A stretch of 36,733 nt of DNA from a virus. Under the pieces are notes generated by a model, which worked only from the letters and a program-made list of their open reading frames with translations, was not told where the DNA came from and ran no database searches. The stretch covers positions 1 through 36,733 of the IMG/VR virus record IMGVR_UViG_3300021168_000063; one strand, 5' to 3'. The translations under genes and the position numbers were made by a program. How positions within the stretch are numbered: the stretch's first letter is position 1; each line of letters starts with the position of its first letter. Below are positions 1,564 to 29,118 of the stretch, piece by piece.

Positions 1564-1596
1564 ATAATTTCTCCTTTGGTGTTTATATTTTCCCGA

Positions 1597-1644
1597 TGAT
1601 TCAAACCTTCTTGTTTGAATCAACTTAAGTGTAGATTCTACACT
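1597..1644 (-). promoter_or_regulatory. Structured 5' leader of the SSB mRNA (two hairpins)
   Basis: Two perfect inverted repeats lie between the late promoter box and the SSB start. One has 8-nt arms at 1628-1635 and 1637-1644. The other has 10-nt arms at 1597-1606 and 1613-1622 with the 6-nt loop AAGAAG on the mRNA. They are followed by about 33 nt of A-rich, apparently unstructured RNA containing the ribosome-binding site. T4 gene 32 is repressed by its own product binding an unstructured leader next to a folded element. Similar control is inferred here, not shown. Confidence 0.5.
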
Positions 1645-1649
1645 ATATG

Positions 1650-1657
1650 TATTTATC
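1650..1657 (-). promoter_or_regulatory. Late-type promoter box for SSB (GATAAATA)
   Basis: GATAAATA on the minus strand, one mismatch from the T4 late box TATAAATA. The predicted transcript start is near 1643, directly at the first leader hairpin. Confidence 0.5.
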
Positions 1658-1676: not shown

Positions 1677-1710
1677 GAAAAACAGCCTTAATGTTATGTT
1701 AAGGCTGTTT
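1677..1710 (-). terminator. Rho-independent terminator after the 580-aa gene
   Basis: Twelve-bp perfect stem (arms 1680-1691 and 1699-1710, 7-nt loop) ending in a T run on the minus strand. It lies 27 nt past the stop codon of the 580-aa gene. Confidence 0.85.
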
Positions 1711-1736
1711 CATTTTACCATACAACTAATTTAGAT

Positions 1737-3479
1737 TTATAGTCCTGCTAAACGTTTCATATCTTCCATTACTGCCGTCTTTTCTTCAGTCTGGATTGAT
1801 TCTGTTGCCTTCTTCTTTTTACGATCTTGTTGCTTCATACGAGAAAAATCAATCTGTTGAACCAACTCTGGCATATTATGGCGTATCCACCACTCAATCA
1901 TAGGGCGAGCATCAGCATCAGGCCCAGAATGCTTTGAACCTGAATACAATTCATCAAACAAACCCTCGTCCCCTAGAACATTATACAGTGCTGAACTTGC
2001 GTTGTTCCCATCTACTCCAAATTCAAGTGGCTTTTCAAGAATAGTCTGCAATTCCTTAACCTTAGCTTCAGTGTCTGGCATAGCCCAAGTGCCTTCTGAC
2101 AATCTTTCGATAGATTCAGCAAATTCTTGAATTGCTTTTTCCTGATTTTTGTTCGTTCGTAATGAGCCCATATATGCTTTTGCAAATTCAAGTGCTAATA
2201 TTTTTCTGCTCTCTGATTCTTCTAGATTTGACGACCAACGTTTTGCTGAACGAGCTAAATTTTTAACCTCTGGGCTATCTTCATTAATTTCAATAAATTC
2301 ATAGATTCTAGTAGCCAATGAAGATTTATCTTCCATCTTCATTACATCTTTCATTTCTTTAAATTTATCCGTCTTCATTGGATCTTTAGTGATATTTGGA
2401 GTTCTAATGAATGACTTCATAGTTGCTTCCATTGCTGTATCACGATTCTGCTTATTTGCATATGCTCTTGCAATGTGTGGTAATGCTGCTTCAAATTTAT
2501 CATCAAATGATTTGCGTGTAAATTTGTCTTTCAATGATTCCGCAAAACGATCATAATCTGGTTTAACTGCTCCGATTGCTGAAGATGAATCATTTGGTGC
2601 TCGGGCTGCACTCATTGCTGCGCCACCATCTTGAGATCCATTAATATCTTCTAATGCGCGTTGATAGCCCTTTTGCCCTTTAAGACTAGAAAGTTTCTTA
2701 TGCATGTCATAGTAATGATCTATAGCTGTTTCAACAATATCTGTCGTTTCACTGTCTTCATATACGGTGTTTTTTGTCTTTCTAACGAAGTGTGCTAGGT
2801 CACTCATTTCGCTAATCATATTGTTGATATGACGTCCGAAATCATCATAAACTTGTCCGCCATTCATCAAATGTCTAGCCATTGCTCTTGCACCACTTAA
2901 CTTTTTAAATGGCATCTTGAATCTTTCGCCTTCATCTGTTTCCAAGTAAATTGAATCAATCTTGCGAGTTCTGGCGCCTTTGACGCCTTCATCTACTTTG
3001 TCTGAATGTTTGATTACAAGTTTAATTGGACCAAAGTTTTGGTAACTAGTCTTAGATGTTCCCTTGAGAGGTTCAATACTTTCTCTCATAGTGTATGCTT
3101 GTTTTGTATATGCGAGATTTCGAATATCATTAACTTGCATATTACCTTTACCGATATCGCGAGGATCGAAACTAAGCATGTTCATTTTTGCAAATGAGCG
3201 CAACTCTTTCAAGAATCCGAACCATTTTTCTTTTGCATGTGGGTCAGTCAAATTTTTTGTAACATTCGAACCATAATATACTTTCAATGAATCTTGATCG
3301 TTCAAAGAAATCGTTACGTTACCTAAGTCGCTGCCATCAAATTCAAAATCGAAGTTAATAAATCTCGCTTCTCGTGGCATAGAGGTTGCCTTTGCATCTT
3401 CTTTACCTAACGAGATACGAGGAAATCTTGATCTGATTTTTCCGAATAGCTTCTCTGCAATGTCGTCAATATTTTTCAT
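1737..3479 (-). CDS. Conserved T4-like phage protein of unknown function (580 aa)
   Basis: I recognise this as a family common in environmental T4-like phages but know no function for it. The N-terminal half is well ordered: FPRISLGKEDAKAT near 19-32, EARFINFDFEFDG near 37-49, WFGFLKELRSFAK near 86-98, and GTSKTSYQNFGPIKLVIKHS near 140-159. The segment ERFKMPFKKLSGARAMARH near 185-203 precedes YDDFGRHI. The second half (about 290-580) is helical and highly charged, with Lys/Glu-rich stretches. There is no signal peptide and no transmembrane helix. It has its own late-type box and terminator, so it forms a single-gene late unit between gp17 and SSB. A virion or DNA-associated role is possible, but nothing in the sequence proves it. 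Confidence 0.8.
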   Translation of the reverse strand: MKNIDDIAEKLFGKIRSRFPRISLGKEDAKATSMPREARFINFDFEFDGSDLGNVTISLNDQDSLKVYYGSNVTKNLTDPHAKEKWFGFLKELRSFAKMNMLSFDPRDIGKGNMQVNDIRNLAYTKQAYTMRESIEPLKGTSKTSYQNFGPIKLVIKHSDKVDEGVKGARTRKIDSIYLETDEGERFKMPFKKLSGARAMARHLMNGGQVYDDFGRHINNMISEMSDLAHFVRKTKNTVYEDSETTDIVETAIDHYYDMHKKLSSLKGQKGYQRALEDINGSQDGGAAMSAARAPNDSSSAIGAVKPDYDRFAESLKDKFTRKSFDDKFEAALPHIARAYANKQNRDTAMEATMKSFIRTPNITKDPMKTDKFKEMKDVMKMEDKSSLATRIYEFIEINEDSPEVKNLARSAKRWSSNLEESESRKILALEFAKAYMGSLRTNKNQEKAIQEFAESIERLSEGTWAMPDTEAKVKELQTILEKPLEFGVDGNNASSALYNVLGDEGLFDELYSGSKHSGPDADARPMIEWWIRHNMPELVQQIDFSRMKQQDRKKKKATESIQTEEKTAVMEDMKRLAGL

Positions 3480-3511: not shown

Positions 3512-5095
3512 TTAGACTGAGAAGGGCGTGCTTCCAATATAGAAGGGCAATGGCATTTCCATATCTTCATCTAGACCCTCTTTGATAGCAGTATCGATTT
3601 CAGCATCGAAATTTTGCAATTGTTGTATCATAGATACACAAAGTAACATGGCGGTAACTAAGTCATCATTTTCGCCTGGTTTTGCCGCATAACCGGTGCC
3701 ATCTGCCACGAAATTCTTCAATTCTGATATCAAATTCTTACTGTTTATTGTGAGCTTATCTTTCTCAACTAAACTCTTGAATTTGTTACACGCAACAAGT
3801 TTCTTCTTATTTGTTGTATTGTAACCTTTTCTATAAAGCCTTTGTTGTCCTGGACGATATGGCTCGCTTAAGAAATATCCTTTTATGTTTTCTTCTCCGA
3901 TTTCTCGAATGACAACTAAATGAGCTTCACCTAGAGTATTATTTTCTAAGCTATAATATACTTTGTCATCACCAGCAATTTCACAAAGATGTGTTGTAAT
4001 ATCATTCAAAATAGAAATTTGCTTTTCCACTGGTGTCTTGTTATGCTGCCATTCTGCCACTTGAATCAATGTAGGAAGTTCAACAACTTGAATTGTTGCA
4101 TAGTCACCACCTGTTCCTATTGCTGGATCTAACGCTACAGCATAAGTAAATCCAGCTTTGGGTTGTTTATACCATCTGACTTGGCCAATCTTATCGACAG
4201 GTTCAATTCCCATCAATGTCGGAAGCTTCATAGGAGAAATAAGTGTTTCATCATTAATAATGAATTCACAATTATGTTCTCGTTCAAAGCGTTCATCGCC
4301 GACGCTTGCACGCTGTTCGTTTTCCCAACCTTGATCGCGCTCTGGATGTTCATTCCATATAGCCTTGAATGCTTTGAAACCATTGCGACCTATTCCTATA
4401 TCATTACCATATTCGTCAATAGTTTTAAGTGCAGTTCTCCAGATTTGAGAAAATTGATCTTCGTCTGAGTTAGGAGTTGATGTGATAATTGCTTTACCGC
4501 CAGTCGCAAGGGTAGGAGAAATTGATGTCCAAAATTCTTTCGCTTTGTTCGGTGGAACGAATGCAAACTCGTCACAATACAATAAAGAAATAGACATGCC
4601 TCGACCTGTTGTTTCAGTAGTCGTCTGAGACATAATACGAGAGCCATTATCAAAGTCTATAGAACCTTTATTATAGCTAGGAACACCAGCACGAATAAAG
4701 TTTGGGCAATGTTCATATCCAAATCTAATACGCTGCATAATTTCTTGAGCACCGATGTATTTGTGGGCAGCGACCAAAATCGTTGAATCAGGCACAAACA
4801 TAGCATACCAAAGTAGGTATCCTGCCGCAGTAGCCGTTTTACCCATTTGTCTGCCCATAAGTGCAATAGCGTGTCTATTATTATGGTAAGTGTCTATTAG
4901 CCCAATTTGATAAGGAAATGGTTTATATTGAATACAACCCCTCGTCGCATGCTGAATATGATAGTAATTGCTTAAGAAATAATGCGGGCCCAAAACTGGA
5001 TCCATACATCTTTGCAATTCTATAATTTGGTCGAATGTGAATTCTTCCTTTTTGTGTGGCGTTTTTACAATTGTTTGTTCGTTTTTATTGCTCAT
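3512..5095 (-). CDS. 17: Terminase large subunit (gp17-like packaging ATPase-nuclease)
   Basis: A 527-aa DNA-packaging motor protein. The N-terminal ATPase has a Walker A-type GRQMGKT at residues 81-87 (T4 gp17 has the same SRQxGKT layout). It also has Walker B plus catalytic Glu (LLYCDEF, 171-177) and a coupling motif TSTPN at 205-209. The C-terminal RNase H-type nuclease has ALDPAIGTGGD at 321-331 (Asp323), the acidic ENN at 384-386 and ENDDLVTAML at 475-484. These correspond to the three acidic residues of T4 gp17. The length is somewhat shorter than T4 gp17 (610 aa). The small subunit lies 6 kb away at 11292-11798, not adjacent as in T4. A divergent HNH nuclease gene starts 60 nt upstream. 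Confidence 0.97.
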   Translation of the reverse strand: MSNKNEQTIVKTPHKKEEFTFDQIIELQRCMDPVLGPHYFLSNYYHIQHATRGCIQYKPFPYQIGLIDTYHNNRHAIALMGRQMGKTATAAGYLLWYAMFVPDSTILVAAHKYIGAQEIMQRIRFGYEHCPNFIRAGVPSYNKGSIDFDNGSRIMSQTTTETTGRGMSISLLYCDEFAFVPPNKAKEFWTSISPTLATGGKAIITSTPNSDEDQFSQIWRTALKTIDEYGNDIGIGRNGFKAFKAIWNEHPERDQGWENEQRASVGDERFEREHNCEFIINDETLISPMKLPTLMGIEPVDKIGQVRWYKQPKAGFTYAVALDPAIGTGGDYATIQVVELPTLIQVAEWQHNKTPVEKQISILNDITTHLCEIAGDDKVYYSLENNTLGEAHLVVIREIGEENIKGYFLSEPYRPGQQRLYRKGYNTTNKKKLVACNKFKSLVEKDKLTINSKNLISELKNFVADGTGYAAKPGENDDLVTAMLLCVSMIQQLQNFDAEIDTAIKEGLDEDMEMPLPFYIGSTPFSV

Positions 5096-5155: not shown

Positions 5156-5737
5156 ATGAGCGACTGCTTAATCCTAAATCAAAGCTATCAACCAATTTCC
5201 ATACTTCCGCTGTCTGTAATCAGCTGGAAGCATGCCATTCGTTTGCAGTGTTTGGACAAACTCCAAGTATTGGAAACGTATGACAATTGGTTTATCCGTT
5301 CAGAACATTTGGCTCTAGCTGTGCCTGCAGTTGCAGTTTCTACAGAGCAATTCAGGTATAAGAAGGCTGTCAAGTTTTCACGATACAATTTATTTCTTCG
5401 TGACTTATTCCAATGTGCATATTGCGATGAAGTATTTGATTTTGATGACCTCACAATCGACCACGTTATCCCGCGTAAGCTGGGAGGTAAGACTACGTTT
5501 GAAAACTGTGTAACTTCTTGTTATCACTGTAACTCAAAGAAGGGTCACAAGCTTATCAGGCCAAAGCGTCCGCCATTCAAGCCTGATTACTACCACCTTG
5601 TTCAAAATTGGAAGCAAGAAACTCCGATTAAGATCAAGCACGATTCTTGGTGGCAGTATTTGGGAATCGAAAAGCCCAATGAACAACGATTAGATTTAAG
5701 TTTGTCTCAGCAAGGTAAGACATTCAAGATGAAATAA
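5156..5737 (+). CDS. HNH endonuclease (193 aa)
   Basis: A complete zinc-type HNH nuclease. An N-terminal region with ILNQSYQPISILPLSVISW at 6-24 is typical of a widespread bacterial and phage HNH family. The core has a CxxC pair at 87-90, the catalytic IDHVIPRKLGG at 101-111 (His103), the Asn of FENC near 117, and a second CxxC at 122-125 followed by NSKKG. It is expressed divergently from gp17. In some phages an HNH protein beside the terminase assists packaging. It could equally be a freestanding homing-type nuclease, and the sequence does not decide. The start has AAAAGGTG upstream. Transcription ends at a bidirectional terminator directly after the stop. Confidence 0.88.
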   Translation: MSDCLILNQSYQPISILPLSVISWKHAIRLQCLDKLQVLETYDNWFIRSEHLALAVPAVAVSTEQFRYKKAVKFSRYNLFLRDLFQCAYCDEVFDFDDLTIDHVIPRKLGGKTTFENCVTSCYHCNSKKGHKLIRPKRPPFKPDYYHLVQNWKQETPIKIKHDSWWQYLGIEKPNEQRLDLSLSQQGKTFKMK

Positions 5738-6608: not shown

Positions 6609-7018
6609 TATAACTGTTCCAATTTTTCTAAAATAGCTACTGCACTTTTTGACATACGAGATTTAGGTGCATACTTATCAACTTGACTTCTCGCATCATC
6701 ACCTATTTTCTTCAGAAGATCCTGCTCGTTTGTCGCATTTACGCCGATGCCTAAATCTCTTGATCCCATTATTCTCATGCTCATTCTAAACATTAAATAA
6801 CCACTGGATTTTATAAGCAGCGCATTGAAAGGTGGTTTATTCCATCCAATATCTTCTGTTCCCCATCTAAATGCATCTACAGGCTTTCCGCTCATGTCAA
6901 ACGTTCCTTGCTTTCCGTGCTCACCTAAAATCGGATTTAAAAGGAATGCTGTTTTTTTCAAATCTTTACTGTGACCTCCAAAAATATCAGTAGTCTCAGT
7001 TATTTCATAAGCTCTCAT
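6608..7018 (-). CDS. MRAYE-start putative packaged protein (136 aa)
   Basis: N-terminus MRAYEITETTD gives I-T-E, another possible prohead protease site. The remainder is compact and mixed alpha/beta: WGTEDIGWNKPPFNALLIKSSGYLMFRMSMRI near 52-83, then an NEQDLLKKIGDDA helix near 97-109. The order (strand pair followed by a helix with a Leu-rich face) vaguely recalls the 109-aa protein and polyprotein module 2, but similarity is weak. It overlaps the polyprotein stop by 4 nt (ATGA). Function unknown. Confidence 0.7.
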   Translation of the reverse strand: MRAYEITETTDIFGGHSKDLKKTAFLLNPILGEHGKQGTFDMSGKPVDAFRWGTEDIGWNKPPFNALLIKSSGYLMFRMSMRIMGSRDLGIGVNATNEQDLLKKIGDDARSQVDKYAPKSRMSKSAVAILEKLEQL

Positions 7019-10000
7019 TTAATGCCTTTATACTCTGCCCAAAGTTTTGATTCCGATACAGATTCATTTTTCTTCCAAGATTTTGGTTCATCACTATATG
7101 TCAAATCATCTTCGTAATCTGCTGCTTGTGCGTGGTCGCCAATCTTTCCTGAAAATGCTTTCTTTTCATTTCTTGCGCGATCAAGATCCGCAGTAGCATC
7201 ATCAAGGCTAGGTTTTTTACCTACGACCTTCTTGAATTTATCCATCCAGCCTTCTTCAAGATCAGCAGATTCAAATGCAGCATCACGTTTTGCAGTATCC
7301 ATACGATTATCGCCATCGTATTCTTTAGCATACTGACCCTTAGGTGAATTCAAATCAGAGCCCTTATTGATCTGTGTATCTAGATCATACACATCTCTCT
7401 TAGGATTGTTACTATATGCATGAGTGTCACCATATTCACCAGATGGTTCTTTGTCTGGATCAGCGTATTGTTCGTCAGCTTCACCAACCATTTCATATGC
7501 ACCTTGATAACCACCTGGTGCTTGCTCAGGTGTTTCTCCGTTAGTAGGTTCCATATGTGCAGAAACTACTGCAACAGCTTGTGGTTGTGCAATACCAGAC
7601 AAACATAGAAGCTTATCAAGTTCGTCACCATGTTGATCTGTGATAGTTAATGACATTGATTTGCCGTCTTCACATTTACTCATAGTTAATGTAGCGCTCA
7701 AATCTTCATTGATACCTTCACTTACATTTTCTGGTGAATATGCTGGGTGACCCTCATGACCTTGTAGTGTTCTTTTTACTGCATCAGCACTGTTATGTCC
7801 TGCTTGTGGCAGATGAAAATGCACATAATCTCCTTGCTGAGACGAAGGAATCTGACCACCGTTATCGCTATGATATTTTTGCAAATCGGACCTGATTGCA
7901 TTTACTTTTCCAGGGTATGCCTTATGAACCGCAACAGATGTTCCTTCATTGACTGATTCATCTTTCTTGAAGTGGTTACGAAGTTTGTCGCCGATTCCTT
8001 TAAAATCAGGTGTTTCTCTTTCTTCATCAACTTCGCCATCCTTCAATGCATTTAGCTTATCCGCTAAACCGCCGAAGTGCTTACCTGGTTCTTTTCCAGT
8101 TGCAAGAGCTTTAATGTTGTCAGCTAGTCCCGAGAAATGGCCTTCACCATCACTTGACATTGAAACGACTTCAGTATCACCATCATCGCTGCAATTTTCT
8201 CCGCTACCCTCGCCACTACCACTTTCAACACCTGACCCTTCGCCACTACCTTCTTCACTTTCAGGTGCTTCTATATCGAAGTAATCCATCATGCGAGAAA
8301 ATACATCACCTTCGCTTTCTGCAACATATGGTTTGTATTCTGCTTTTTGACTTTGCAATCCAGCAAGCTTCATCATTGAGCCTAAGCTATCAACAATCTT
8401 CTTAGTATCTTCTGTTTGCGTTAAATCAAAGCTTTCATTAATCTTTTTAGTTTTCTTTGTCATAGGTTTATCTTCCATTGCTTCAGCAAACATAGATTCG
8501 AATGCTTGACTTTGTTCATCGTTATTTACAGATTCATTCTTTTTACTTCTCTTCCAAGCTGTAGCATAAAGAACTTCTAAGCCTTTCTTTTTACCGTATT
8601 CTTTCACGAACTTAGATTTATTAGCTTTAATCCAAGATTCTTGACCTGGCGCAGATTTTTCATTCAATTCTACACTTTCATTGATATATCCATGATTGTT
8701 CTGAGCAACTTTTAAAGTTGCAAACTTACCTTTAACTTTACCATCTTTATCAACTGCATGATATGTGTAATTTGCATCCTTATCACCATTCACAGACTTA
8801 ACTTTAAAGCCCAACTTAGACGCATGGGACTTCCAGCCTGATAAGTCTTTAAACATTTTTCTTCCTTCTAGCACAATTGATTCACCAACTTGCTTAGGAT
8901 TCTTTCCTGCTTGCTTAGACGGCATTGAGTCATAGAATTCATCAATAACTTTCAAAATCTCTGCCGGTTTAATCAAATTATCACGACCTTTCTCATATCC
9001 TGTGACTCTCAAGTATCCAGGATATTTTTCAGACCATCCGACAACTTTACCTGACACTTTATTTCTATTGTCATCAATATACGAAACTGTTTTACCTACA
9101 TAGTCTTCTGCATTTTCATCAATAACTGAATCTGGATCGGCTTGCATTGGACTATCTTCCATTTCAATATCATGACGATCACCATCTAGAGGCCATGGAC
9201 CTTGAAGCTTACCGCTCAAATCTTGAATAATTTCATCTTCACCATTATCATTTTCTTCTTCCAATTCATGAGAACGAGGAATATATGAATGTTCTCCTGG
9301 AGCAGAAACGGGGTTGTGTTGGCGAGACTTTGGTGCATCGATCATCTTTTGACGATTGTATTCGTCTGCCGACCAATCTTCATCCATATCAAGATTATCA
9401 ATACCGTGAGTCAATGGGCTTGCTTCAGCAGAGAAATCTACGTCTTCGCCGATTTCGTGCATAGGTTCAGCATAGATGGGATATGGCTTTTCACCATGAG
9501 TCTTGCCCACTAATCCCATCTTATACACTGCTGGATCGTGTGCTTTAATCATTTTGATTGCGTCACTTGCTGCATCTTCTGATTCAAAGTCTCGGGCTTC
9601 GCCCTTATCCGCAGTCCAGTAATAGTTTCCATTTGCATGAAACTCTTTGAAATACATTTTGTGGCCGTCTTTATGCATACAAATCACCACTGGATCTGTT
9701 CCTACATCTTCGTCCCACATGCTTTCATTTGTTTGTTGTTTTTTCATAGTATGATTTTCCCTGACAGATTCTTCTAAATTCATTTTACTTGCAAGATTTT
9801 GAAAAATCTGTTTTAATTCATTTGCATTTCTAAACCCTTTAGTGATAAAAGAACCATATTTCAGGCCTGCTGGGTTGCCTGGTGTTCTTTCATTCGATTT
9901 ATAGTATGGTTGAATACCGATAACATACTCAGCTGGATGCTTAAAATATACAACATCAACTCCACCTGTATGTGAATCGTTGCGATGAGTTGCATTTAAA

Positions 10001-22087: not shown

Positions 22088-22095
22088 TATAAATA
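22088..22095 (+). promoter_or_regulatory. Late promoter box, perfect TATAAATA
   Basis: Exact T4 late consensus, 78 nt before the ATG at 22174. The roughly 70-nt leader contains small potential hairpins (for example GCAG-6nt-CTGC) of unknown relevance. Confidence 0.62.
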
Positions 22096-22173
22096 TTACT
22101 GTCGTATCACGATTTATGCAGGTCCTTCTGCGTAGACGCTAGAACGTCAAATCTTAAACAAAAAGGAAATATC

Positions 22174-23046
22174 ATGGGTCGTCCCATTAAGAAAAAATTC
22201 ATTAAATCAACACAACCGCATCACATTACTTGCACAGCATGGACTACATCTGGCGGATCAGCAAAAGCAGGAACAATCGTAAGACAAAAAACTAGCAATA
22301 GATATAAAGTTACTACTGCTGACGGCACTGCCCTTTGCAAACTAGTGACAGGAACGCCTACTGCTGCAGGTCAAATGTCTATTACTGTTCAACCATATGT
22401 TACTCCTACCGTAGCAGCAATTTTTGTTGTGCATATGCAAGCTGATAGTGCAACTCTAGGAAATGCAGGAACTGGATATGTTGCAACTAACACAATAACC
22501 CTGGCAGGCGGAACTGGAACAGCAACAGTAATTACTGTTGATACAATCGGTGCAGGCGGAAGCGTCGCAACATTTCATATTTCTACGCCTGGCGATTACA
22601 CTGCACTTCCTACAAATCCAGTGGCGCAAGGTTCAACGAACGGTATCGGAACAGGTGCTACATTTAATTTGAAATACAAAGTTTTAAGTTTTTCAGATAC
22701 AGGCAATACAGGAACTGGTTATGGTGCAAACACTGAAATCGTATTCGATGGTGGTGGCTTTACTACACAAGCAACAGGAACTGTGGCATCAGGAACAGGC
22801 TCATTGCTTACACCAACAGTTACTGCAACTGGATCAGGATATACTAGCATCCCCACAATTACTGCATTATCATTCGGAATTACACAATATGCGAACAAAG
22901 TTAATAATCGTACTGTTGAAACTTTTCAAGATAAAAAGTATAAATGGGAATTGACTGGAGCAGAATTAATCGGCGTTGCAATACCAAATGGTCCCACTTC
23001 TCAAGGAACTGGAACATTAGGATTAGCATTGATTCAATCTAGCTAA
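22174..23046 (+). CDS. Virion structural protein, GRPxKKKF-type with repeat insertion (290 aa)
   Basis: N-terminus MGRPIKKKFIKST and the segment GTIVRQKTSNRYKVTTADGT near 38-57, with YANKVNNRTVETFQDKKYKWELTG near the C-terminus, match a family of small proteins I recall from many marine T4-like phages, thought to be virion components. Between about residues 95 and 235 is an insertion of glycine-rich beta repeats (GNAGTGYVATNTITLAGG, GNTGTGYGANTEIVFDGGG, GSGYTSIPTIT) typical of fibre or decoration proteins. Good AAGGA ribosome-binding site. Single-gene late unit closed by a strong terminator. Confidence 0.7.
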   Translation: MGRPIKKKFIKSTQPHHITCTAWTTSGGSAKAGTIVRQKTSNRYKVTTADGTALCKLVTGTPTAAGQMSITVQPYVTPTVAAIFVVHMQADSATLGNAGTGYVATNTITLAGGTGTATVITVDTIGAGGSVATFHISTPGDYTALPTNPVAQGSTNGIGTGATFNLKYKVLSFSDTGNTGTGYGANTEIVFDGGGFTTQATGTVASGTGSLLTPTVTATGSGYTSIPTITALSFGITQYANKVNNRTVETFQDKKYKWELTGAELIGVAIPNGPTSQGTGTLGLALIQSS

Positions 23047-25853: not shown

Positions 25854-26072
25854 TTAGTCAGAGTATTTTAAACGTAGAGATAATTTGTGTTGTTCTGATT
25901 CAACGAGAATTATATTTCTTATATCCCAAAATTCTCGTCTAAGCGTTCTCTTAGAGAATCCGGGAATCTCAAATTCTACCAACCAATAAACAGTATCAAG
26001 CACTATTCGTTCAAATACTAGCCGACCAAAATAATGTGATTTTTTATGAAATACTTGATCATTAGCTTTCAT
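25854..26072 (-). CDS. Array protein 14 (72 aa)
   Basis: Last member of the 14-gene paralogous array. N-terminus ANDQVFHKKSHYFGRLVF aligns with the family pattern (G-D-x-V-x-H-K-K-x-x-x-F-G). A WLVEFEIPGF strand and WDIRNIILVESE follow. The C-terminus HKLSLRLKYSD keeps the L-K-Y ending, but the D-T-P-Q-N-R block has become SEQHK. Closest to member 13, which has the same WDxxNIIxxESExHxL segment. Start overlaps the upstream stop by 4 nt. Confidence 0.78.
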   Translation of the reverse strand: MKANDQVFHKKSHYFGRLVFERIVLDTVYWLVEFEIPGFSKRTLRREFWDIRNIILVESEQHKLSLRLKYSD

Positions 26073-26284
26073 GATTTCAAAATCAATTCTAGATAATGCT
26101 TTTCTGATTCTATTTTTATGATATTTTTAGAATCCCAATAATTGTGTCGCAGGAATTGGGAATCTCCTGAATCAGGGATTATTTTCAGAAACGGTCTATT
26201 TTTATAGAGAACAGTTTCTCCTGTCGCAGTTCCGAATTTTTTCCATCTTTTATGATAATACTTATTATCAAATTCGTCTATCAT
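26069..26284 (-). CDS. Array protein 13 (71 aa)
   Basis: DEFDNKYYHKRWKKFGTATGE keeps the aromatic and x-K-K-F-G part of the N-terminal family pattern. NYWDSKNIIKIESEKHYLELILKS is clearly related to member 14 and marks these two as a recent pair within the array. The final K-Y is replaced by K-S. ATGA overlaps on both sides. No known domain. Confidence 0.76.
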   Translation of the reverse strand: MIDEFDNKYYHKRWKKFGTATGETVLYKNRPFLKIIPDSGDSQFLRHNYWDSKNIIKIESEKHYLELILKS

Positions 26285-26529
26285 CGTCTAGCATCTCCTA
26301 ATTTTAACTTGTAGAACAGAAATTCTTGTTCCGTAATCTTTTCACAGTCAGGAGCAAGCCAATAATCACTTTCGTCGCATTCTACGTCATACATCCGATG
26401 ATATTTTTCTTCTATATCATCAGAGAAGATTGTATTGATGTATCTGACTACACTAGCTAAGTTGTATTTTCTGTTGTAAAGATGATCACCTATTTGAAAT
26501 ACAGGTAGGTTAGTAACTGTTTGTTCCAT
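26281..26529 (-). CDS. Array protein 12 (82 aa)
   Basis: VFQIGDHLYNRKYNLASVVRYI matches the family start (F-x-I-G-D-x-x-Y-N). The body has DVECDESDYWLAPDCEKITEQEFLFYKLKLGDARR. The position of D-T-P-Q-N-R-L is occupied by TEQEFLF, so this is one of the most diverged C-termini. Its start codon lies inside the upstream gene's K-Y-G codons, giving a 20-nt overlap. Confidence 0.74.
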   Translation of the reverse strand: MEQTVTNLPVFQIGDHLYNRKYNLASVVRYINTIFSDDIEEKYHRMYDVECDESDYWLAPDCEKITEQEFLFYKLKLGDARR

Positions 26530-26818
26530 ATTTAAGAATTACTGCTAGTCGTTGTTTTGGAGTATCTTCTTTAAGTAAAATACCGTGCTTATAAAAATTC
26601 AGAAATCCTGCTCGTGAATCTTCAATGTCAATACAGTAAGAGTAACACAAGGTTCCAAATGTTTTCATGAAGCCATTTTCAGCTATAACTTTGGCTCCCT
26701 GGCGCTGCCCGAAGAATTTATATTTTTTTCTGAACCCAACTACATGCCACCATTCTTCAGAAGGCGGATAATAAATTACGTCACCTTTTTCTATAGAAAA
26801 CATTTCGTCTTTAGTCAT
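26510..26818 (-). CDS. Array protein 11 (102 aa)
   Basis: Longest member. FSIEKGDVIYYPPSEEWWHVVGF at 7-29 is the family N-terminus. A middle extension contains two aromatic clusters (KYKFFGQRQGAK and TFGTLCYSYCIDIED). The C-terminus is LKEDTPKQRLAVILKYGTNSY, retaining D-T-P-x-x-R-L and L-K-Y-G with a 4-residue tail. The ATG sits in the upstream gene's K-Y-D codons (8-nt overlap). Confidence 0.78.
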   Translation of the reverse strand: MTKDEMFSIEKGDVIYYPPSEEWWHVVGFRKKYKFFGQRQGAKVIAENGFMKTFGTLCYSYCIDIEDSRAGFLNFYKHGILLKEDTPKQRLAVILKYGTNSY

Positions 26819-27026
26819 ATTTCAATTGATAAAATAAACGGTTCTCAGGAGTATCAGTTTCTAAAAATGAAAATTCTTGTTCGCCAATAATGCCATAATA
26901 TTTAAATTGTTCATTATAATATTTGTATATTTTGTAACCATACTTATTTGATAGTTCTTTGTCTAACTCTCCCACCTGGATAAAACGTTTTCCCTTAAAG
27001 AAATATCCAATTTTAAATGCATCCAT
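26811..27026 (-). CDS. Array protein 10 (71 aa)
   Basis: MDAFKIGYFFKGKRFIQVGEL is a shortened family start. The middle is Tyr-rich (YGYKIYKYYNEQFKYYG). C-terminus FLETDTPENRLFYQLKYD keeps D-T-P-E-N-R-L and L-K-Y-D. Start overlaps the upstream stop by one base (TAATG). Confidence 0.78.
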   Translation of the reverse strand: MDAFKIGYFFKGKRFIQVGELDKELSNKYGYKIYKYYNEQFKYYGIIGEQEFSFLETDTPENRLFYQLKYD

Positions 27027-27280
27027 TAATGCGCGCCTCGTTGCCCTTGATATTTTAACTGTACTGCTAATCTATTCTGAGGTGTGTCTGGAGTCACTTT
27101 CATATAATCACAAATCCACCAAGACCCTGAACGATTAAATAAAGTTATTCCATCATCATCCACTAGATGCACTCGCGTATGATCTTCTAGATCAAGCTTG
27201 CTCACCTTTGCGAATACAAAATTATTTTGATCAGAAGGCCTAAAGTAGAGTACATCACCGACTTTAAATTCATTGTCCAT
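27026..27280 (-). CDS. Array protein 9 (84 aa)
   Basis: MDNEFKVGDVLYFRPSD, with the same first 23 bp as member 8. FAKVSKLDLEDHTRVHLVDDDG reads as two beta strands. GSWWICDYMKV precedes TPDTPQNRLAVQLKY, the canonical C-terminal motif. Unlike most members it has a six-residue tail (QGQRGAH), and the next start therefore falls at the stop codon instead of in the motif. Confidence 0.8.
   Translation of the reverse strand: MDNEFKVGDVLYFRPSDQNNFVFAKVSKLDLEDHTRVHLVDDDGITLFNRSGSWWICDYMKVTPDTPQNRLAVQLKYQGQRGAH
27258..27280. repeat. 23-bp direct repeat at the start of array gene 9
   Basis: Identical to 27463-27485, 205 bp away; encodes the MDNEFKV start. Confidence 0.88.
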
Positions 27281-27485
27281 ATTTAATATCCATCATCAAT
27301 TTTGTTTGGGGTGAATCATTACTTACTGCAACTATATTTTTTTCTAACCACAGCTTAGTATTTGAACCAAGTGCGTCAGTAACTTTAACATGAATAAACC
27401 CTCGATCCGCTAAAAAAGTCACCTTTCCGAATTTATGAAAAATTTTATGATAAACAATAGCCCCGACTTTAAATTCATTGTCCAT
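27270..27485 (-). CDS. Array protein 8 (71 aa)
   Basis: MDNEFKVGAIVYHKIFHKFGKVTFL is a model family N-terminus (F-K-V-G-x-x-V-Y-H-K then F-G-K-V). C-terminus VSNDSPQTKLMMDIKYGQ keeps spacing with conservative changes (D-S-P-Q-T-K-L). Start embedded in the upstream K-H-G-Q codons (11-nt overlap). Confidence 0.8.
   Translation of the reverse strand: MDNEFKVGAIVYHKIFHKFGKVTFLADRGFIHVKVTDALGSNTKLWLEKNIVAVSNDSPQTKLMMDIKYGQ
27463..27485. repeat. 23-bp direct repeat at the start of array gene 8
   Basis: Perfect copy of 27258-27280. Confidence 0.88.
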
Positions 27486-27705
27486 GTTTAATCCTGATGG
27501 CTAAGCGATTTTTAAGATTGTCTGGCCCAATACACTTTACTAAGCTACCGAAAAAATATGTATCTGTTCTTAGATAGTAAGGTCCAATTCCTTTGTGATT
27601 ATAAATATCCACTACAGCAACTCTTCCATACGTTCTCTTTATAATTCCGAATTCATCTTCATTAGGATTATAAACAAAATCAAATTTTTTAAATTCAGTC
27701 AGCAT
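27475..27705 (-). CDS. Array protein 7 (76 aa)
   Basis: MLTEFKKFDFVYNPNEDEFGIIKRTYGRVAVVDIY follows the family plan. C-terminus GPDNLKNRLAIRIKHGQ has N-R-L and I-K-H-G in place of the commoner R-L and L-K-Y-A. Its ATG lies in the K-Y-A-D codons of member 6 (11-nt overlap), and its own K-H-G codons supply the next ATG. Confidence 0.78.
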   Translation of the reverse strand: MLTEFKKFDFVYNPNEDEFGIIKRTYGRVAVVDIYNHKGIGPYYLRTDTYFFGSLVKCIGPDNLKNRLAIRIKHGQ

Positions 27706-27928
27706 ATTTTATTTGAAGCGCCAATCGTTTTTGTGGTGTATCTTCTTTTAAAATTACCATATTAGACACATACCACTGTCCATGTATGTCAGGATTATGA
27801 TCTTCCACCTCGACTTCATATATTAATTCTTCTAAATTTTGTAGGGCAGGTCGACCGATGCCATCAACCAAAGAACCAAATTGTTTTCGTTTCTTATGAA
27901 ATACTATCGTACCGGTTTTTAATTCCAT
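27695..27928 (-). CDS. Array protein 6 (77 aa)
   Basis: I choose the ATG at 27928 (MELKTGTIVFHKKRKQFGSLVDG) because it aligns with the other members. The frame extends three codons to a GTG at 27937 that would overlap the upstream stop. Middle: LIYEVEVEDHNPDIHGQWYVSNMV. C-terminus LKEDTPQKRLALQIKYAD is canonical. Confidence 0.78.
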   Translation of the reverse strand: MELKTGTIVFHKKRKQFGSLVDGIGRPALQNLEELIYEVEVEDHNPDIHGQWYVSNMVILKEDTPQKRLALQIKYAD

Positions 27929-27933
27929 GCTAA

Positions 27934-28179
27934 TCACTGATATTTTAATGAGATAACAAGTTTTTCTTCTACAGAACGAACAGGAATGAATTTGCTTTTA
28001 TCAAGCAAGGAATAATCAGATATATAAACTGGCACATGTTTAAAATTATCATAATCTATCTTAATATAATTGATACGTTTGCCATTACACATCAATCCTA
28101 TTTCAGCTACCGTACAAAACACTAGTCGATCTAAATCAAAAAATATCGAATTCAATTTAACATCATCCATTATTTGCAT
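27934..28179 (-). CDS. Array protein 5 (81 aa)
   Basis: Diverged member: VKLNSIFFDLDRLVFCTVAEIGL replaces the usual K-V-G-D start, and YIKIDYDNFKHVPVYISDYSLLDKS forms the middle. C-terminus FIPVRSVEEKLVISLKYQ retains only the V-x-x-K-L and L-K-Y positions. An internal ATG (MDDVKLN) three codons in is an alternative start. Overlaps member 4 by 10 nt. Confidence 0.73.
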   Translation of the reverse strand: MQIMDDVKLNSIFFDLDRLVFCTVAEIGLMCNGKRINYIKIDYDNFKHVPVYISDYSLLDKSKFIPVRSVEEKLVISLKYQ

Positions 28180-28469
28180 CCGTGTTTTAGAATAAATGCC
28201 AATTTGTCTTGTGGAGTAGCTATCTTATACATTTTATTATCTCGCAGCCAACAATTCCAATGATGCAAACTTATTGTTCCGTATGTTGGTGCATCATCTA
28301 AATCCCCTTCGTATCCATAAGCACAAAGATAATGTACCAACATACTGTCTCCTGACTCACTTAATACTGTTTTGGTGACTTTCATTTTGCAAAATTCGTC
28401 ATACCTATTAATTAGATAATAGATATCGTCATCAGTTGCTGGTGGATTAAGAAGATGCATATCAGGCAT
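28170..28469 (-). CDS. Array protein 4 (99 aa)
   Basis: The N-terminal half is unlike the others (LLNPPATDDDIYYLINRYDEFCKMKVTKTVLSE), though DEFCKMKV recalls D-E-F-K-V. LHHWNCWLRDNKMYKIATPQDKLAFILKHGCK shows the W-x-x-x-N-M and T-P-Q-x-K-L ... L-K-H-G C-terminus. Could be a fusion of a family C-terminus to another small domain. ATG lies in the K-Y-A codons of member 3. Confidence 0.76.
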   Translation of the reverse strand: MPDMHLLNPPATDDDIYYLINRYDEFCKMKVTKTVLSESGDSMLVHYLCAYGYEGDLDDAPTYGTISLHHWNCWLRDNKMYKIATPQDKLAFILKHGCK

Positions 28470-28722
28470 ATTTTAGCTTTAAAAATAAACGATTTTCGGG
28501 AGTGTCTGGATTAAGTTTAATTGTGAGAGTAGTTGCCCACAAATAAATGTCATGTCCTCTTAGAGGTCGGCAATCAATGTCATGTTTTGCCCTAAAAATG
28601 ATAGGATCGTAGTACGGATTCCGCTCCGGAGTTATAGAATACACCTTTCCAAAATAACCAGTTTTCGTATTAAACACTGAATCACCTTCTTTTAATTCTA
28701 ACCCATTAATATCTTTAAGCAT
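28462..28722 (-). CDS. Array protein 3 (86 aa)
   Basis: LELKEGDSVFNTKTGYFGKVYSI at 8-30 is a textbook family N-terminus. The middle carries a Pro/Arg/Asp-rich loop (PERNPYYDPIIFRAKHDIDCRPLRG). C-terminus LNPDTPENRLFLKLKYA. Start and end both use the K-Y-A/ATG overlap (8 nt each). Confidence 0.8.
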   Translation of the reverse strand: MLKDINGLELKEGDSVFNTKTGYFGKVYSITPERNPYYDPIIFRAKHDIDCRPLRGHDIYLWATTLTIKLNPDTPENRLFLKLKYA

Positions 28723-28906
28723 ATTTAAGTTGAATTTTTAATCTGTTTTGTGGTGTGTCTGGATTTACAACAACGATTGTGTAATTTGGCCAAAGATGAC
28801 CTACATTGAGATCATAATCAGCAGCAAACACACTTTCGTTATAGACATGAGTAATTTCAGCGAATTGCTTATTATGAATATTGAAAACAATGTCGCCGAT
28901 TTTCAT
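28715..28906 (-). CDS. Array protein 2 (63 aa)
   Basis: Shortest member and probably the minimal unit: MKIGDIVFNIHNKQFAEITHVY, then a short strand (VFAADYDLNVGHLWPNYTIVVV) and NPDTPQNRLKIQLKYA. Its last 47 bp are identical to the corresponding part of member 1. GAGG in the upstream gene precedes its ATG, one of the few junctions with a Shine-Dalgarno-like site. Confidence 0.82.
   Translation of the reverse strand: MKIGDIVFNIHNKQFAEITHVYNESVFAADYDLNVGHLWPNYTIVVVNPDTPQNRLKIQLKYA
28719..28765. repeat. 47-bp direct repeat, copy in array gene 2
   Basis: Identical base for base to 28916-28962, 197 bp away. It encodes the C-terminal N-P-D-T-P-Q-N-R-L motif through L-K-Y-A and runs past the coding motif into the sequence at the next start. 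Confidence 0.92.
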
Positions 28907-29118
28907 TATGCCTCTGCATATTTAAGTTGAATTTTTAATCTGTTTTGTGGTGTGTCTGGATTCACTTCCACAAAATTATCACTATGAATTAGGATTTCGT
29001 TTTCCTGACCTTCATATTTAATTTTGAAAAATCCAGGCGGAGTGTAATGGCTTTCACGAATAACTTTCGAAAAGTTCTTCCGCTTGGGATGAAACAAAGT
29101 TGATCCAATTCCAATCAT
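28906..29118 (-). CDS. Array protein 1 (70 aa)
   Basis: First array gene, starting immediately after the stop of the 403-aa gene. MIGIGSTLFHPKRKNFSKVIRE follows the family plan. FFKIKYEGQENEILIHSDNFVEV is the strand region. NPDTPQNRLKIQLKYA is followed by Glu-Ala, which displaces the downstream start from the motif to a TAATG overlap. Confidence 0.82.
   Translation of the reverse strand: MIGIGSTLFHPKRKNFSKVIRESHYTPPGFFKIKYEGQENEILIHSDNFVEVNPDTPQNRLKIQLKYAEA
28916..28962. repeat. 47-bp direct repeat, copy in array gene 1
   Basis: Perfect copy of 28719-28765. The rest of the two genes differs, so the identity is confined to the 3' block. Confidence 0.92.

Follow-up and report, generated by a model that had tools for sequence, protein, structure and literature searches.

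A conserved hairpin at the predicted late start of the SSB mRNA in giant T4-like phages

Giant T4-like phages of one large group have a small hairpin at the predicted start of the late SSB mRNA, preserved by paired changes in its two arms. We describe it here in a fragment of such a phage, the 36,733-nt stretch of IMG/VR record IMGVR_UViG_3300021168_000063 (hereafter, the window), and across 80 non-redundant SSB leaders comprising the window, IMG/VR contigs and annotated phages. The conservation and covariation of this 5' hairpin point to an undescribed control element of a key replication gene, and our literature searches found no description of an SSB 5'-end hairpin element.

On the minus strand of the window, SSB (562-1563) is preceded by terminase (3512-5095) and then a virion protein (1737-3479), and is followed by a RecA/UvsX-type gene (1-488), an arrangement shared with most annotated jumbo-phage relatives that we fetched. 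The upstream gene ends in an intrinsic-terminator-like hairpin with a T tail (1679-1711, minus strand), so that SSB has a promoter region to itself. The longest SSB reading frame begins at 1659, but relatives align from its M33, which places the actual start codon at 1563-1561 and gives a protein of 333 aa. This protein matches phrog_1192 (E 3.1e-59), as does T4 gp32 (3.5e-16), and it also matches phrog_224, the gp32 family (3.8e-4). Judged by these family matches held in common, the SSB is a distant relative of T4 gp32; it has no Pfam match and, by sequence, no convincing PDB relative. Elsewhere in the window, a plus-strand HNH endonuclease (5156-5737) has its neighbours on the opposite strand, and about 14 small, tightly packed ORFs of 63-102 aa lie in a row on the minus strand (25854-29118).

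The promoter and leader features that follow are all on the minus strand. Both marks of a T4-type late promoter were found, the (T)ATAAATA core in the window (ATAAATA, 1650-1656) and a gp55-family late sigma factor in relatives (six of eleven large ones). The T4 late element TATAAATA sits at -13 to -6 (PMC1524935), and by analogy the late start (+1) of the window would fall on A1644, the first base of the upstream leader hairpin, hp1. The original prediction that hp1 forms the extreme 5' end of the mRNA is therefore upheld, provided that T4 spacing applies. Late-like motifs also precede other genes in the window; in 22089-22173, ahead of 22174-23046 (phrog_460, head closure), two hairpins are predicted after such a motif (E -10.4, z -2.3).

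Overlapping the late promoter is a sigma70-like pair, TTGCTA (-35, 1659-1664) and, after 18 nt, TAGAAT (-10, 1635-1640), the latter inside hp1 and reading TATAAT in the sister contig L090. This promoter was overlooked earlier and implies an early transcript without hp1; a sigma70-type transcript would start near 1628 and carry hp2, the second hairpin. Among relatives too, a sigma70-like promoter usually overlaps and has its -10 box in the 5' arm of the hairpin; a sigma70 -35 element matching at least four of six positions is present in 62 of the 80 leaders, against 12 expected. Nine leaders that lack a good -10 box still have a hairpin, which argues that the hairpin follows the late start and not the -10.

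The window leader (1657-1564) has a minimum free energy (MFE) of -18.7 kcal/mol (z -4.1), a value as low as which was reached by none of 200 shuffles, and z is -3.9 when the fold begins at the predicted +1. Both perfect hairpins proposed for it fold as claimed: hp1 (1644-1628), a 7-bp stem with loop AAU at the predicted late-transcript 5' end, whose structure is conserved in relatives, and hp2 (1622-1597), a 10-bp stem with loop AAGAAG. The final 33 nt (1564-1596) are indeed A-rich and hold the ribosome-binding site, with the Shine-Dalgarno sequence AGGAG (1571-1575) 7 nt before the ATG, but the further claim that they are unpaired has to be softened to mostly unpaired, as the MFE structure contains a 2-bp GG/CC contact. 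In simulated 94-nt Markov leaders, a perfect stem of at least 7 bp occurs in 4.5%, one of at least 10 bp in 0.06%, and both together in 0.035%. By this measure hp1 is unremarkable and, taken alone, weak evidence, which cannot be said of hp2; the strength of hp1 as evidence therefore comes from relatives. The exact hp1 sequence has eight matches in viral contigs, a number that we judge to be near chance. No Rfam family rose above threshold in the window or in ten relatives, and the weak sub-threshold matches in the window are probably due to chance.

To assemble relatives, SSB and terminase queries to IMG/VR (best 80 per query) were combined with annotated phages, yielding 166 leaders, of which 104 were non-redundant and 95 had a late motif; the analysis covered the 80, termed class 1, whose motif lies close to the hairpin. 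Leaders were anchored on the late motif, since a first promoter picker had misplaced sites in some of them. Because folds begun at +1 cannot start any earlier, folding was repeated freely over -18 to +40, and here 60 of 80 leaders placed the 5' edge of the helix between -3 and +3 relative to the predicted +1, most often at +1 (25 leaders) and -1 (17 leaders).

Pairing between the arms is specific to each leader. When arms were swapped among 33 clusters less than 55% identical, a clustering that lessens kinship among the leaders while some remains, own arms averaged -10.0 kcal/mol vs -5.0 for swapped arms (z -13.1); over all leaders z reached -20. A set of 12 without gaps had 94.2% of its cells paired (80.4 in shuffles) and 20 cells with double changes (7.4 in shuffles); seven pairs were changed on both sides. 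Slid controls of this set were 19-51% paired, and its covariation score was reached by none of 500 shuffles. The hairpin is also largely a property of SSB leaders: one at +1/+2 with E of -6 or lower is found in 75 of 84 SSB leaders vs 4 of 32 other late-type promoters, a control set that may include some non-promoters and in which one of the four is an SSB leader that slipped in. Computation thus supports a structure with covarying arms that is registered to the predicted late +1 and is rare at other late-type promoters.

A quick tree places the hairpin throughout most of the clade of the window, which itself sits on a long branch; in the same tree the hairpin is absent from the cultured RaK2/121Q/GAP32/Vibrio group and from PA5oct-like phages. 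One subclade (L002, L029, L035, L039, L058, L078 and others) is arranged differently. There the late motif lies upstream of the -35 and is separated from the -10 by about 33 nt, which places the hairpin away from the late 5' end; the hairpin is followed by a T tract and contains the sigma70 -10, amounting to a promoter inside a terminator-like hairpin.

The nearest relative of the window is L090, whose SSB protein is nearly identical (CDS 97.9% identical). Its leader is strongly altered, yet both hairpins are retained, even though its own hp1 is weak (z -1.1). Hp2, kept there with changed sequence, is recognised only in these two contigs, and L090 is therefore the only evidence that hp2 is conserved. 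Between SSB and uvsX, L090 also carries an insertion of about 700 nt (around 7002-7709), in which one ORF (MASEFIPTWLYIKQHNVTGLKYFGKT...) resembles a GIY-YIG homing endonuclease; in T4 it is SegG that lies next to gene 32.

Downstream of the hairpin, relatives have a median of 45.5 nt before the ATG, folding no better than shuffled sequence (z +0.36), and so combine a folded element with some 40 or more weakly structured nucleotides. In the window, 33 nt follow hp2 and 64 nt follow hp1, with hp2 inside the latter span. Two motifs recur in this stretch among relatives. AGGCA is found in 59 of 80 leaders and AAGACCA in 30 of 80; AGGCA(A) often stands in two or three copies between the hairpin and the Shine-Dalgarno sequence (for example in L002, L017 and L043), and AAGACCAWCUU directly before the latter (for example in L124, L123 and L121). 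AGGCA reaches 26 per kb, a figure inflated because the leaders were chosen for at least two copies, vs 1.3 per kb before other genes, and 48 of 52 occurrences of AGACCAWCTT were in SSB leaders among the fetched loci, some of which overlap. Overall repeat content is barely above that of shuffles (4.1 vs 3.4); single motifs are nonetheless specific. The window leader has neither motif and no repeated 6-mer. Conservation of these motifs in relatives suggests more than end protection.

We propose that the SSB promoter and leader would form a compact module, with a T4-type late promoter set within a sigma70-like one. The late transcript would begin with a stem-loop and almost no unpaired 5' nucleotides, continue through an open stretch (about 45 nt in relatives, interrupted by hp2 in the window) and reach the ribosome-binding site, whereas the early, sigma70-type transcript would start at the hairpin's far edge, leaving it out. 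The explanation that we favour, tentatively and at somewhat less than even confidence, is that the stem-loop stabilises late SSB mRNA by shielding it from 5'-end-dependent decay, which would keep up the supply of SSB late in infection. We infer this protection, and every other functional step, from the computed features; it is preferred because registration to +1 is the most constrained of them and because 5'-terminal stem-loops are known to stabilise the E. coli ompA and papA mRNAs (according to references in PMC3997798). Counting against protection are the weak hp1 of L090 and the long branch of the window, the subclade with its hairpin away from the late 5' end, the lack of the hairpin in the RaK2/121Q/GAP32/Vibrio group and in PA5oct-like phages, and the conserved downstream motifs of relatives. 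Hp1 may in addition supply the folded element of an operator for SSB autoregulation.

That second role, taken by itself, is the main rival, and we consider it possible but less probable. As a gp32-type autogenous operator, the leader would let free SSB nucleate at the 5' hairpin, spread cooperatively and block the ribosome-binding site. The relationship of the SSB to gp32 speaks for this, as do the T4-like layout of a folded element followed by more than 40 less structured nucleotides with the ribosome-binding site, the near restriction of the hairpin to SSB genes with little structure over its 45.5-nt median distance to the ATG, and the enrichment of AGGCA and AGACCAWCTT in SSB leaders. Yet a pseudoknot finds no support (complementarity between loop and downstream sequence in relatives, own 4.59 vs swapped 4.62, p 0.64; the hp1 loop in the window is 3 nt), the window lacks repeats, and a sigma70 transcript would evade repression mediated by hp1. 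A nucleation site, moreover, need not be at +1, where the hairpin is predicted to lie, and 5'-end protection accounts for this tight registration at least equally well. Protection and an SSB-bound operator can coexist: in T4, the stable gene 32 mRNA is trimmed at -71 and has its operator starting beside that site (PMC3014915). A bolder combination, which we think unlikely, is an SSB autoregulatory leader of a new kind, which would join a pseudoknot-free 5'-terminal hairpin to clade-specific single-stranded motifs read by SSB or a partner. The hairpin would be late-only, with the early start at its far end, so that only late SSB mRNA would be both stabilised and repressible.

Readings in which the hairpin acts otherwise fare worse. 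It is improbable that hp1 is a terminator or attenuator, stopping transcripts that arrive from upstream or begin at the late promoter while sigma70 transcripts begun inside it escape; a T tract directly follows the hairpin in 8 of 80 class 1 leaders, and in the subclade with the upstream late motif, but the other 72, the window included, have none, and the window has its separate terminator-like site at 1679-1711. More improbable still is a DNA palindrome serving as a dimeric-repressor operator across the overlapping promoters. The hairpin overlaps the -10 box in most leaders, as such an operator might, but it persists where the -10 is lost, pairing is kept while sequence is not, and the common G-U pairs (49 TG and 12 GT of 521 pairs) are left unexplained by a palindrome in DNA. 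Least probable of all is a chance hairpin without function in this phage: the frequency of 7-bp stems in Markov leaders and the weak hp1 of L090 would allow it, but its position and its conservation in relatives tell against it.

Set beside known systems, the element that we favour as a protective stem-loop is comparable with the gene 32 operator of T4 and RB69, which likewise serves an SSB gene of a related family and places a folded 5' element before an open, ribosome-binding stretch. In T4 that operator consists of a pseudoknot and UUAAA/UAAA repeats (PMC535899), whereas here the predicted late +1 is occupied by a plain hairpin, no such repeats were found before the ribosome-binding site of the window leader, and relatives carry other motifs. 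The proposed likeness to gp32 control thus survives as a layout conserved in the group but not in its T4 particulars, and since pseudoknot and repeats were not found we do not class the element as a gp32 operator. No T4 message is more stable than that of gene 32, which RNase E trims to -71 next to the folded element, and autocontrol by gp32 in diverse T4 relatives is said to need more study (PMC3014915). With its predicted +1, our hairpin would share with the ompA and papA stem-loops the near absence of unpaired 5' nucleotides; those serve genes that are neither SSB nor phage genes, and experiments have shown that they protect, whereas here protection is proposed from computation and linked to a late promoter overlapping a sigma70-like one. 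In the leader of T4 gene e (lysozyme), too, a class-specific promoter within a hairpin makes early and late transcripts differ in structure, but there the early RNA bears an inhibitory hairpin over the ribosome-binding site, while here the late RNA would bear a 5' hairpin away from it. The STAXI motif is also structured and near SSB genes, but is made of tandem pseudoknots (PMC2864571), and no Rfam family passes threshold here.

In a broader context, giant T4-like phages of a broad group conserve a covarying leader element that makes the question of gp32-type autocontrol testable there, and among cultured phages Agrobacterium phage Atu_ph07 and Sinorhizobium phage Phosso provide candidate examples. 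Phage replication and recombination proceed at a pace set by the SSB level, and gp32 serves as a textbook example of a protein controlling its own mRNA.
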